A DNA stretch of 64,000 nucleotides from Candidatus Peregrinibacteria bacterium CG10_big_fil_rev_8_21_14_0_10_36_19 (lineage in GTDB: Bacteria; Patescibacteriota; Gracilibacteria; UBA1369; LOWO2-01-FULL-3): NCBI GenBank assembly GCA_002772535.1, contig PFDP01000015.1, positions 44,903 through 108,902 on the forward strand, read 5' to 3'. How positions within the stretch are numbered: position 1 is the stretch's first letter; each line of letters begins with the position of its first letter. The position numbers and the translations under genes were made by a program. Of this stretch, positions 35,075 to 40,113 are shown piece after piece. Below the pieces are notes generated by a model. It was not told where the DNA came from. It saw nothing but the letters and a program-made list of their open reading frames with translations, and made no database searches.

Positions 35075-35854
35075 TTATAAATTTATTTTTGTTGGAGTTT
35101 TTATTTTCATACCAAGATTGTTTTCTGTGAACCTTTTAAACTCTTCTGGATTGTCTGTAGTGAAGTAAGTGCGAGTTTTATTTTTACCTAAAGATTTCTC
35201 TAACTCTGGATTTGCTTTTAAAAATTCCTCTAAATACTTAGCCGTGATCTCACCTGAAGTTACTATTTTAACTTTTCTACCCATAATTTTTTTAAAAGAT
35301 TTCAACATTATTGGGTAATGGGTGCAACCAAGAATCAGAGTATCTATATTGGCATTTTTTAAAGGCATAAGATATTTTTTGAGAATTGAGATTGCTTCTG
35401 GTTTTGTGTGCCACCCCTCTTCAATGAACGGAACAAGCAAAGGACAAGCTTGGGTGTAAATTTGCAAGCTTTTATTTTGCCTTTTAAGGGCTTTTTCGTA
35501 GGCGGCCGAGTTTATGGTTGTTTTGGTGGCCACCACCCCTATGCGGCCGTTTTTTGTAACTTTTGATGCCTCAAGTGCTGATGGTTCTATAACTCCAATA
35601 ATTTTATCGTCTTTAATTTTTGAAAGTGCAGTTGCAGAAGCTGTATTGCAGGCAAAGATAATCAGCTTAGCTCCCCTACCCTTCATATAATCTACTGCTT
35701 TTTGTGAAAACTCCGTAACAGTTTCTGGACTATGAATACCATATGGAGCCTTGGCATTATCCCCAAGATAAAGATAATCATATTGAGGCAGTAGCTCTAA
35801 AATGGGCTTTAGAACTGTGAGACCACCATAACCGGAATCAAAAATTGCAATCAT
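35075..35854 (-). CDS. murI: glutamate racemase
   Basis: MIAIFDSGYGGLTVLKPI...LGDNAKAPYG...FACNTASATAL...LILGCTHYPIM. Confidence 0.96.
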   Translation of the reverse strand: MIAIFDSGYGGLTVLKPILELLPQYDYLYLGDNAKAPYGIHSPETVTEFSQKAVDYMKGRGAKLIIFACNTASATALSKIKDDKIIGVIEPSALEASKVTKNGRIGVVATKTTINSAAYEKALKRQNKSLQIYTQACPLLVPFIEEGWHTKPEAISILKKYLMPLKNANIDTLILGCTHYPIMLKSFKKIMGRKVKIVTSGEITAKYLEEFLKANPELEKSLGKNKTRTYFTTDNPEEFKRFTENNLGMKIKTPTKINL

Positions 35855-35904
35855 GGCCGAAGTTTACCTTTACCCACAAAGATGATCAAGATACTATTAG
35901 GCTG

Positions 35905-36621
35905 ATGAACAAGCAGATTTCAGTAGTTTTGGTGGCAGCAGGTATATGCTTTGGAGTACTAATGAGCTGGCAATTTGCTAGTGATGCACCATCTGATAGC
36001 AACTTTTTAGCAGATGAAATTAGTGCGAGAGAAAACTTAATAAAAGGCTTTCTTGATGAACAAACATATCTTCAGAGTAGAATAGTTTTTTTGCGTAAAG
36101 AAATTGAAAGAGAACAAGACCTAATAAAATCACAAGGGACTGAATCCAGTTTGACCGAACTAGAAAAATTAAAAAGGATACTTGGCCTAAGCGAAATAAC
36201 TGGTAAAGGCTTAGAGGTAACGTTAAATGACAGTCCAATTGCCGTAAGACAAGGCGAAGATATTAGTAGTAAAGGTTTAATACAGGCGGCCGATATTCGT
36301 GATGTAGTTAATCTTATGAACGCAGCTTCTGCGGATGCAATTTCAGTAAATGGTCAAAGAATAATCGCAAGCTCTCCAATATCCTCAGTTGGCACCACTA
36401 TATTGGTTAATAACTCCTATATATCCCCTCCTTTTGTTGTAAGTGCTATAGGAGATCCGGAAATAATGATACAAAGATTAAGTAATAGAGCTGCTTTGCC
36501 GGAGCTATACAAGAGAGTTCAAGAGAGCAAAGTGAGTATGAAAGTAAGTTTAAGAGAATGGGTAAGAATTCCTATTTATAATGGCGATCTTAAATATAAT
36601 TACATAAATTTGGTAGAATAA
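35905..36621 (+). CDS. DUF881 family membrane protein (copy 1)
   Basis: N-terminal TM, coiled coil, GLEVTLNDSPIA...IQAADIRDVVNLMNAASADAISVNGQRI. Confidence 0.85.
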   Translation: MNKQISVVLVAAGICFGVLMSWQFASDAPSDSNFLADEISARENLIKGFLDEQTYLQSRIVFLRKEIEREQDLIKSQGTESSLTELEKLKRILGLSEITGKGLEVTLNDSPIAVRQGEDISSKGLIQAADIRDVVNLMNAASADAISVNGQRIIASSPISSVGTTILVNNSYISPPFVVSAIGDPEIMIQRLSNRAALPELYKRVQESKVSMKVSLREWVRIPIYNGDLKYNYINLVE

Positions 36622-37238
36622 TGGATCCAAGAAAAATATACATATTAGTGGTTGCAATATTACTTGGAATTTTTGTTGTTGCTCAAAATAAGTCTTTTAA
36701 CAAGCTAGATGTGTTGAGCCGTGATGGTAAGAGTAATGTGTTTCAAGAAATTCAAATCCTGAAAGAAAAGAATCTTTCTTTGAAGAGCGAAATGGATGAC
36801 CTGGAAGCCAATTTAAAACTTTTGACTAGTCAGGGTGATGCTCTAAAAGCAATTGATGATGAGATCAAAAGGTACACAAAAATAAGTGGGCAATCCCCTA
36901 TTTTTGGACCTGGTTTCTATATTAAATTTGAGGGAAAAATTACCACTCCTTGGTTGGTGGATTTTATCAATGAATTATGGAGTACCGGAGCCCAAGCTGT
37001 AGCTGTAAATGGCATTAGAATTACTAATGAAACTGTTGGATTTGATAGCCTACCACAAGGACAAGTTTTGCTTAATGGAAGCATATTGTCATCCCCTTTT
37101 GTAATTGAAGTTATTGGTGAGTCTTCAACCATTTTAGGAAATATAGAAGTTGGTGGAGGAATTTTACAAAGAATGAAAGCCGCATTACCAGGAATGAAGG
37201 TTTCATATGAAAGAAAAGATATTATCCAAATGCAATAA
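36621..37238 (+). CDS. DUF881 family membrane protein (copy 2)
   Basis: Same architecture (GPGFYIKFEGKITTPWLVDFINELWSTGAQAVAVNGIRIT). Confidence 0.82.
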   Translation: MDPRKIYILVVAILLGIFVVAQNKSFNKLDVLSRDGKSNVFQEIQILKEKNLSLKSEMDDLEANLKLLTSQGDALKAIDDEIKRYTKISGQSPIFGPGFYIKFEGKITTPWLVDFINELWSTGAQAVAVNGIRITNETVGFDSLPQGQVLLNGSILSSPFVIEVIGESSTILGNIEVGGGILQRMKAALPGMKVSYERKDIIQMQ

Positions 37239-37242
37239 ATCT

Positions 37243-37881
37243 TTATCTATAGACTAAAAGTAACCAAAGTGGTTGGAGAGCTAAGATTATAAGCAAGATA
37301 ATTACAAAAATTCTTTTGTTTAACTTTTCATAATGAAGCTGTTTTGCAATTTTTTTTGCCGTTTCAGTGCTGTGAACAAGCTCTTTTTTAAGCTCATCTT
37401 CCTTTTGAGTGCGCTTAAAACTTTCATTGTGATATTCGAGCATTGGTATACTATTTCTAACTTGCGATTCTAGCTGCCCAACTCTATAATTTGCGATTTC
37501 TAACCTCTCTTGCTTCTCTCTCAACTCCTGCTTCAACTCTTCGAATAGTTTTTTATATGTACCGCTTGGTTTGTTTATTTTTTTAACGCGAGTGGACACA
37601 AAGTCGACATTTTCTTGATTAATCACATCAACATTGTCCACATTGTCCATAGTGTCTACCCTACTGTCTATAGACATTTTAGGTGTAGACACCTGAACAG
37701 TAGACACGTTGTTAAAATTAGCTATTTCTTCTTTATTAAGCCAAATTCTGCCATCTATTAACATAGTAGACAATTTTTTTGCCTTAATATACCTGTCTAG
37801 TGTCCTTATTGACACTTTTAACAGCTTACTAGCTACTTTTCTGTCTATGTTGTATGTGGACAAAGGGTTGTCTACTGTCAT
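37243..37881 (-). CDS. HTH (MerR/excisionase-like) DNA-binding, coiled-coil, C-terminal membrane-anchored protein
   Basis: NIDRKVASKLLKVSIRTLDRYIKAKKLSTMLIDGRIWLNKEEIANF HTH; long charged helical region; C-terminal RIFVIILLIILALQPLWLLLVYR TM helix. Confidence 0.78.
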   Translation of the reverse strand: MTVDNPLSTYNIDRKVASKLLKVSIRTLDRYIKAKKLSTMLIDGRIWLNKEEIANFNNVSTVQVSTPKMSIDSRVDTMDNVDNVDVINQENVDFVSTRVKKINKPSGTYKKLFEELKQELREKQERLEIANYRVGQLESQVRNSIPMLEYHNESFKRTQKEDELKKELVHSTETAKKIAKQLHYEKLNKRIFVIILLIILALQPLWLLLVYR

Positions 37882-37971
37882 TTTATTGTCTAGTTAGTGT
37901 CTATAGACTAGGTATAGACAAAATGTGGACATATTTGCCGCAATTCTAGTGCATTTGTCTACCGATGTCTA
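37653..37971. promoter_or_regulatory. dense TGTCTA/TAGACA motif array
   Basis: Exact hexamers at 37653, 37665, 37671, 37686, 37701, 37767, 37794, 37842, 37869, 37887, 37898, 37915, 37956 and 37966, including the perfect palindrome TGTCTATAGACA at 37665-37676. Confidence 0.85.
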
Positions 37972-38031
37972 CTTTTGATCTTTACATATTTCGTTCGTCC
38001 CTCATAATAGAAACACTCTCATTCCCACATT

Positions 38032-40113
38032 ATGCGAAATCTAATTATTACTGCCATTTTGGCGGTATTAACTTCACAGATAGCCTCTGCCGAGGTTGTA
38101 TATGAAATGTTTATGGCTCTTGAGCCAGATACAACAGTATTTAAAGGATCATTTACTGGCGGACAAAAAGGCGCATCTTTAGCTAAAGGAGATTTTGATG
38201 GTGATGGAATTGAAGATATCGCGATGGGCTCCCCTTTTGCCTCTACGGACGATAAGAAATGGAATGGTGTTGTGGACATGTATCTAGAAAAAGGAAATAA
38301 AAAGCTATCATTTTCTGGGAAAAACTCTGGAGATCAATTAGGATCAAAATTAGTTTTTGGAGACTTTAATAATGATGGTAATGATGACATTGCGATAGGC
38401 GCCTATAATGCTTATAAATCAAACGATAGGCCTGGCGAGGTATACATTTACTATGGACACGGAGATTGGAATAGTCAGGCGGATAATCTACTGGATACTC
38501 AAACCTTAAATATCACCTACGTTAAGCCAGATTTGACGTTATCAGGATATGAAACAAATGATTCTTTTGGGCTTGATGTCTACTCAGCAGATATTAATAA
38601 TGACGACATTGATGATCTAATAATAGGCATTCCCTTTGCTTCAACCCCCTCATATAGCAACTCTGGGAAAGTAAATGTCTACTATGGACACAAAAGGGGA
38701 TTAAAGAAGGAAATCAGCTTAACTATAAGAGGAAATGAAAGTGGCGAAAGATTTGGCAGCAGTATTGCAAGCGGCGATATAGATGGTGATGGACAAGAAA
38801 ACTTAATTGTAGGTGCCTACTATGGTGGAGTAGACAACACTAGACAAATAGGTAAGGTTTATATCTATGATGACTTCTCTCCTAATGACTATGTGATAAG
38901 GAATTATCAGCATGTACTAAAGGGAAAGAATGAAAAAGAGTGGTTTGGTTTTGATGTAGACACTGGCAAATTTAATGATGACGACATTGACGATATTGCA
39001 ATAAGTAGTTTCCCATATAGTGGAAATTCTGAAGATTCCAAAGTTTCGTTATTTTTTGGGACTGAGGAAGAAATGAAAGGCAGTCCCGATGAAATTTTCA
39101 CAAACTTTGAAAGTGAAAGCATGCAAGGAGCTAGTGTGATGATGGAAGATTTTGATATGGATGGGAAAGACGATGTTGTAGTTGGCGCTCCTGGAGTGGG
39201 GGATAAAACTCAAAGCACACCTGGTAATATAAATATTTACTACGCTAATGGTAAAAAATCTTTAATTGTTGGTAAGGATACTGATGACTGGTTTGGTAGT
39301 AGTATTTTGACTATTGATTTTGACCAAGACGGCTACAAGGATTTAGTTATTGGTGCAAGATATGCAGATGGTGAAAAGTCTATGAATAATGGAGAAGTGT
39401 ATGTAATTAGAGGTAATGGCATAGGATTTGGGACTGGCAGAATAGTCTCAACAGAAAACTATGTAAGACGCGATGAATTTATCTCTACAGTACTACAAAG
39501 GCTATCACTTAAAACACAACACGAAAAAGATTTAGAAGAGTGTGCAAAATTTATAGATTTTTGCTTGTTCAACTTTTCGGCTATGTCTGATTATGACGAA
39601 ATGAAATTAGATGGCGAAATACAATTATATCCAGATGTTGGTCCAAATGATCGCCTATATAATGATATTAATATTGCCACGATGCTTGGAATGATAAACG
39701 GATATCTAAATGAAAAAAATAGCCCGTTTCACCCTGAAAGACCAATATCTCGAATACAATCATTAAAAGTGGTACTAGGTGCACTAAAATTAGTTGATAA
39801 TAAATTTAGATTTGAATTGGTTGATGAACTGGGGTCTGTGGAGAATCTCAAAAACCAAAAAAGCTACTTTAAGGATGTTAATCCAAAAATAGCTGATATG
39901 TGGTGGTATCCAAGATATACAAATTTTGCTGTTGAGAATGGCATAATTAACAATGGGGACTTGTTTAGACCTGATGATAATATTACTATGGCAGAGCTTG
40001 ATGATCTTATTGATGAAGCACTCGCATATATTAAAAGAATAAATGAGGAAGCTAACTTACGAAGAAATACAGAAGATGAAACCTTCGGAATCGGAAGTAA
40101 AAACGAAGGATAG
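38032..40113 (+). CDS. secreted FG-GAP/integrin-alpha-like beta-propeller protein with C-terminal SLH-like region
   Basis: Repeated GDFDGDGIEDIAMGSP, GDFNNDGNDDIAIGAYN, EDFDMDGKDDVVVGAPG, IDFDQDGYKDLVIGARYADG Ca-binding blades; C-terminal SLH-like segment. Confidence 0.92.
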   Translation: MRNLIITAILAVLTSQIASAEVVYEMFMALEPDTTVFKGSFTGGQKGASLAKGDFDGDGIEDIAMGSPFASTDDKKWNGVVDMYLEKGNKKLSFSGKNSGDQLGSKLVFGDFNNDGNDDIAIGAYNAYKSNDRPGEVYIYYGHGDWNSQADNLLDTQTLNITYVKPDLTLSGYETNDSFGLDVYSADINNDDIDDLIIGIPFASTPSYSNSGKVNVYYGHKRGLKKEISLTIRGNESGERFGSSIASGDIDGDGQENLIVGAYYGGVDNTRQIGKVYIYDDFSPNDYVIRNYQHVLKGKNEKEWFGFDVDTGKFNDDDIDDIAISSFPYSGNSEDSKVSLFFGTEEEMKGSPDEIFTNFESESMQGASVMMEDFDMDGKDDVVVGAPGVGDKTQSTPGNINIYYANGKKSLIVGKDTDDWFGSSILTIDFDQDGYKDLVIGARYADGEKSMNNGEVYVIRGNGIGFGTGRIVSTENYVRRDEFISTVLQRLSLKTQHEKDLEECAKFIDFCLFNFSAMSDYDEMKLDGEIQLYPDVGPNDRLYNDINIATMLGMINGYLNEKNSPFHPERPISRIQSLKVVLGALKLVDNKFRFELVDELGSVENLKNQKSYFKDVNPKIADMWWYPRYTNFAVENGIINNGDLFRPDDNITMAELDDLIDEALAYIKRINEEANLRRNTEDETFGIGSKNEG

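Follow-up and report, generated by a model that had tools for sequence, protein, structure and literature searches.

A tail-anchored winged-helix protein of Peregrinibacteria with a conserved site array at its own gene, a candidate self-repressing chromosome-to-membrane tether

Why should the gene of a small membrane protein carry a dense array of hexamers across its own promoter and codons? The locus that raises this question lies in a 64,000-nt stretch of DNA (the window) from Candidatus Peregrinibacteria bacterium CG10_big_fil_rev_8_21_14_0_10_36_19 (GCA_002772535.1, contig PFDP01000015.1, positions 44,903–108,902 of the forward strand). Peregrinibacteria are tiny bacteria, mostly uncultured. 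The minus-strand ORF at 37243–37881 of the window encodes a 212-amino-acid, tail-anchored winged helix-turn-helix (HTH) protein, for which a first-pass annotation had proposed either a membrane tether analogous to RacA or Noc or an autoregulated membrane regulator. The explanation we favour, with about an even chance of being right (probability roughly 0.5), is a self-repressing chromosome-to-membrane tether akin to RacA, RocS and pSK1 Par.

A recount of the window returned the 14 exact TGTCTA or TAGACA sites previously noted at 37653–37971, as well as the palindromic double site TGTCTATAGACA (37665–37676) inside the coding sequence. Five exact sites lie upstream of the start codon and nine within the first 36% of the coding sequence, in keeping with the annotated distribution over the promoter and 5′ third. 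With TNGACA allowed, the array comprises 20 sites, in both orientations, over 37604–37971. Over the 1,074,598 bp of the window's genome, exact sites number 471 (195 + 276), compared with 622 (302 + 320) for the reversed control, so that 0.14 are expected in 319 bp, where a hand estimate had given about 0.2. On the same count, a genome-wide uptake-like or regulon motif was rejected. Scanning the whole genome for closely spaced sites revealed one dense cluster, at the gene of the tether candidate. Five more TGTCTA/TAGACA sites were seen inside the divergent FG-GAP/SLH gene beside the array (38577–38962), and such sites are few in the flanks of most relatives. The nadK coding region of the same genome (L252; G000 C8:33407–33723) contains six exact sites in 320 bp, including TGTCTATAGACA; it was rejected as a conserved second array, being absent in nadK of nine relatives.

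Protein and array are conserved together. Of 99 related CPR genomes (Peregrinibacteria/Gracilibacteria), 88 carried an orthologue, in one copy each except for split matches, and named family members are Candidatus Peregrinibacteria, Peribacteria and Gracilibacteria, with a few records bearing other titles. When 380 genomes of the phylum were scanned, full-length members of the family turned up in the one class alone, three families of which lacked the protein, and matches outside the class were weak and mostly to the HTH end of the family model. A single-sequence scan of genome contigs for close relatives gave no match and an alignment-based scan gave 74 relatives; a search of plasmid sequences gave none, and a search of viral contigs gave one, to the HTH only. 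NCBIfam and PHROGs searches returned an excisionase-like HTH and nothing else informative. On these searches, the tether candidate is near-universal in, and specific to, the Peregrinibacteria-type lineage. Across 81 orthologous loci (−150 to +330), 596 TAGACA sites were found where flanking DNA predicted 22, and TCGACA, TGGACA (a near-variant already noticed in the window) and TTGACA were enriched 9-, 7.5- and 5-fold; related genomes, which are not independent events, inflate these counts, yet many families of the class show the pattern. Where exact sites were scarce, most lineages nonetheless had an excess of TNGACA. Phased direct pairs (TAGACA-N3–6-TAGACA), counted in 29 genomes, fell mostly at this gene in array-bearing genomes; elsewhere their number was close to that of the control. 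Family f4 (G032 is one example) has only three to five TNGACA sites, mainly in the promoter, and no pair cluster there, indicating that a large array is not indispensable.

Site density over the 81 loci had two peaks, one at −100 to 0 and the other, over the linker codons, at +200 to +300. Synonymous shuffling with protein sequence and codon usage held fixed yielded a mean of 118 coding-region sites and a maximum of 141 in 300 trials, compared with 371 observed. This roughly threefold excess over synonymous expectation indicates that the DNA itself is under selection, and some coding sites occupy the identical codon in up to 32 of the 81 genomes. Upstream sites were phased at about 11 bp (R 0.72; the highest value among 500 random placements was 0.26). 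Little phasing was seen among the coding sites, which are tied to the reading frame. From the co-conservation of protein and array and the position of the sites, we infer that the protein binds them.

The proposed domain order, an HTH, a long helical region and one C-terminal transmembrane (TM) helix, was borne out by an AlphaFold2 model built with 64 orthologues, by Pfam and by hydropathy. The MerR/RacA-type winged HTH (residues 5–62; 37696–37869, minus strand, as are the segments that follow) was predicted with a pLDDT of about 95 and matched Pfam HTH_17 in 57 of the 64 orthologues; R26, T27, D29 and R30 are invariant. It is followed by a linker with VST/VDT/VDN repeats (residues 63–105; 37567–37695), predicted to be disordered (pLDDT below 50 for 63–96) and encoded by codons that hold much of the coding-region portion of the array, and by a long helix (residues 106–190; 37312–37566) with the family motif RLExANYRVGQLEAQ, in which A130, Y132, G135, Q136, L137 and E138 are invariant (A130-x-Y132-xx-G135-Q136-L137-E138) and heptad periodicity is weak. 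In the model, residues 106–211 form a single uninterrupted helix that includes the TM segment at its end. Hydropathy places the TM helix, IFVIILLIILALQPLWLLL, at residues 191–209 (37255–37311), followed by three residues, and it is kept in 79 of 81 orthologues. The positive charge before the TM helix (net about +2 on its N side) and the short tail behind it (about three residues across the orthologue set) fit tail anchoring with a cytoplasmic HTH. The closest Foldseek matches of the DNA-binding domain include GlnR and, with probabilities near 1, BldC, Xis, RacA and pSK1 Par, at E-values of at least 0.018, which are modest because the domain is small; the likeness to BldC, Xis, RacA and pSK1 Par is a fold assignment from a predicted structure, not proof of homology.

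The predicted promoter (37943–37971, minus strand) comprises TAGACA as −35, a 17-bp spacer containing a second TAGACA, and TAGAAT as −10. The layout TNGAC[AT]-16–18 bp-TANNNT was found near the start in 50 of 81 loci, compared with 2.6 expected in shuffles, a generous contrast because shuffling breaks up the array, and 34 loci carry a further TNGACA inside the spacer. Given this overlap of sites with the conserved predicted −35/−10, bound protein would block RNA polymerase, making autorepression of the gene very likely; this is the safest functional inference that the locus permits. Tether and autoregulator had been offered as alternatives: the autoregulator very likely stands, but the choice between the two does not, because the sites overlap a conserved promoter and the protein, if it sits on its own gene while anchored in the membrane, must also keep that locus there.

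In the tether that we propose, the winged HTH would recognise WV-TNGACA, best as TAGACA, and copies of the protein would bind side by side on one helix face over the promoter, 5′ UTR and first third of the gene, shutting off its transcription. The flexible linker and the long, probably oligomerising helix would join the bound domains to the C-terminal TM helix, so that the array would be docked at the membrane in one centromere-like patch. The likeliest role would be to anchor or segregate the chromosome in cells that have no SMC and usually no ParB. Consistent with a tether, the clustered target of the DNA-binding domain appears to be single. That docking may be the purpose is suggested by an array larger than the five repeats of the autorepressor RA3 KfrA and by the absence of SMC, and mostly of ParB, from the genomes tested. 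A role in segregation is more speculative and draws on RocS, a protein of like layout and the main segregation factor of pneumococcus. The few sites of f4, the lack of a link to the origin, the weak heptads and the three families without the protein all speak against a tether.

SMC searches of 14 Peregrinibacteria-type genomes gave no match above the cut-off, only coiled-coil and short N-terminal matches. ParB had no match in the window's genome and was above the cut-off in one of 34 genomes. Judged by these searches, which covered SMC and ParB, the segregation machinery of the class looks unusual. The locus was rejected as an origin or terminus: there was no GC-skew switch at it in the window, G018 or G045, and skew was weak or uneven in G020 and G090. 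In the one-contig genome G005, about 42% of the circle separates the locus from dnaA. All sampled stretches of G005 (998,424 bp; L091–L110) had a strongly negative GC skew of −0.15 to −0.45 with no switch; a one-sign skew despite ORFs on both strands is unusual for bidirectional replication, and skew provided no usable origin. Half of the loci share a neighbourhood of an FG-GAP gene, a DUF881 pair, murI, guaA, trmH and ybeY; the remaining loci differ, so an obligatory operon partner was rejected. The two tandem DUF881 proteins (35845–37238 in the window), kept at about half of loci, lie tail to tail with the array gene. Assemblies G042, G053, G011, G002 and G062 break off within some tens to hundreds of bases beyond this gene.

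The leading competitor is autoregulation alone, in which a structural or scaffold protein of the membrane would bind its gene cooperatively and act as a roadblock there, keeping itself very scarce, with docking as a functionless side effect. The coverage of the −35, spacer, 5′ UTR and early coding sequence by sites accords with this explanation, as do the lack of another conserved cluster in the genomes examined and the retention of mainly promoter sites in f4, and strong KfrA-like repeat autorepression is a precedent (PMC7783346). We take it seriously but on balance doubt it, because 10 to 18 sites over 400 bp, selected inside codons, exceed the five of RA3 KfrA, and because it leaves unexplained why a conserved membrane protein should have a DNA-binding domain whose sole target is its own gene. 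A CadC/ToxR-type one-component regulator, tethered to the membrane and controlling a regulon, is improbable: an N-terminal HTH, a TM helix and scattered single TGTCTA sites are present, but the protein, unlike such regulators, ends about three residues past the TM helix and so has no extracytoplasmic sensor, the motif is unenriched genome-wide and, outside the locus, phased pairs are about as frequent as in the control. Least probable of all is an array unrelated to the protein, for although its two-orientation repeats resemble replication iterons and its coding sites encode VDT/VST, a by-product of that repetitive segment is at odds with the excess under synonymous shuffling (371 versus 118) and the large share of non-coding sites, a DNA-uptake sequence with the lack of genome-wide enrichment, origin iterons with the lack of a skew switch in the window, and mobile-element ends with one locus per genome that diverges with the host lineage and is found in no plasmids.

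Taking the tether reading a step further, we tentatively suggest that, in a CPR class that has no SMC and usually no ParB, the chromosome is anchored or segregated by one tail-anchored protein acting on a single centromere in its own gene, partly in its own codons, such that centromere, binder and feedback would form one 1-kb unit. Chromosome placement and segregation in CPR bacteria with genomes of about 1 Mb seem little explored, and a limited literature search on Patescibacteria found no paper on the subject. If true, the tether would clearly exemplify a binding-site array kept inside the codons of its own binding protein's gene, with the disordered linker also providing space for DNA sites. 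It would likewise be a TM-anchored natural counterpart to RocS, bearing on how an NTPase-free tether segregates DNA. The candidate has a defined DNA target and could be tested in E. coli or in vitro, with no need to culture the host.

Among known systems, RocS, pSK1 Par and KfrA are closer comparators than the RacA and Noc named in the first-pass annotation. RacA of Bacillus subtilis (5I44) shares the winged HTH fold, the long helix and the tethering of DNA to a cell-envelope site; it was among the top Foldseek matches (E 0.03, probability 1.00), and its profile match to the protein was weak (E 0.42). RacA is brought to the pole by DivIVA, and its binding sites are many, GC-rich and dispersed near the origin. 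The Peregrinibacteria protein instead has a TM helix, which makes a DivIVA link unnecessary, and one cluster, at its own gene, which in G005 is about 42% of the circle away from dnaA. Of the first-pass proposal, the RacA-like fold, the conserved anchor and, in nearly all relatives, the cluster at its own gene are supported; a RacA-like set of dispersed origin-proximal sites is not. The Noc analogy was not supported: no ParB-type domain (Noc/ParB) was among the Pfam or NCBIfam matches of the protein.

RocS of Streptococcus pneumoniae, as described in excerpts of two papers (PMC11500499, PMC13042908), likewise has an N-terminal MerR-type winged HTH, a long helical middle and a C-terminal membrane anchor, and is chromosomally encoded. 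The first of these excerpts, which gives the layout as winged HTH, coiled coil and membrane anchor, presents RocS as the main segregation factor of pneumococcus, working without ParA (PMC11500499). RocS differs in carrying DUF536 and a MinD-like amphipathic helix, the latter replaced in the Peregrinibacteria protein by a 19-residue TM helix, and the excerpts make no mention of a site array at rocS itself (PMC11500499, PMC13042908). DUF536 (PF04394, with three conserved glutamines) was found in none of 12 genomes at E 0.01, with a positive Lactococcus lactis control, and was absent from the families listed for 64 family members. Because DUF536 was not found and a TM helix replaces the amphipathic helix, the protein falls outside the RocS/Par family. 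pSK1 Par (8CSH), a single-protein plasmid partition system, has a winged HTH of the same fold (TM-score 0.70–0.72 by target length, E 0.25–0.29) and no NTPase. It has repeats upstream of its own gene and is autoregulated. Par is plasmid-borne, with DUF536 and an amphipathic C-terminus according to the excerpted source (PMC11500499), whereas the Peregrinibacteria protein is chromosomal and TM-anchored, with an array that extends into the coding sequence.

RA3 KfrA, also an HTH protein with a long helix, has a unique operator of five 9-bp repeats in both orientations around its own −35/−10, exerts strong autorepression and has a role in plasmid maintenance (PMC7783346). The operator position is matched here at a predicted promoter; KfrA is, however, a plasmid protein with five promoter repeats and none reported in its coding sequence (PMC7783346), as opposed to 14–20 running into the coding sequence. 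KfrA models were not among the Pfam/NCBIfam matches of the protein, nor was there a plasmid match, in a comparison made via family models. KfrA is not known to have a TM anchor. The closest solved folds of the DNA-binding domain are BldC and phage/ICE Xis (6AMA, 4J2N), at the level of fold and with modest E-values; BldC forms cooperative head-to-tail multimers on direct repeats (PMC5859096). These proteins differ in having no long helix and no membrane anchor, and BldC regulates many genes. Judged by sequence and predicted structure, the protein is not a member of the RocS/Par, Noc or RacA groups, and combines a RocS/pSK1-Par layout with KfrA operator logic and a BldC/RacA/Xis DNA-binding fold.
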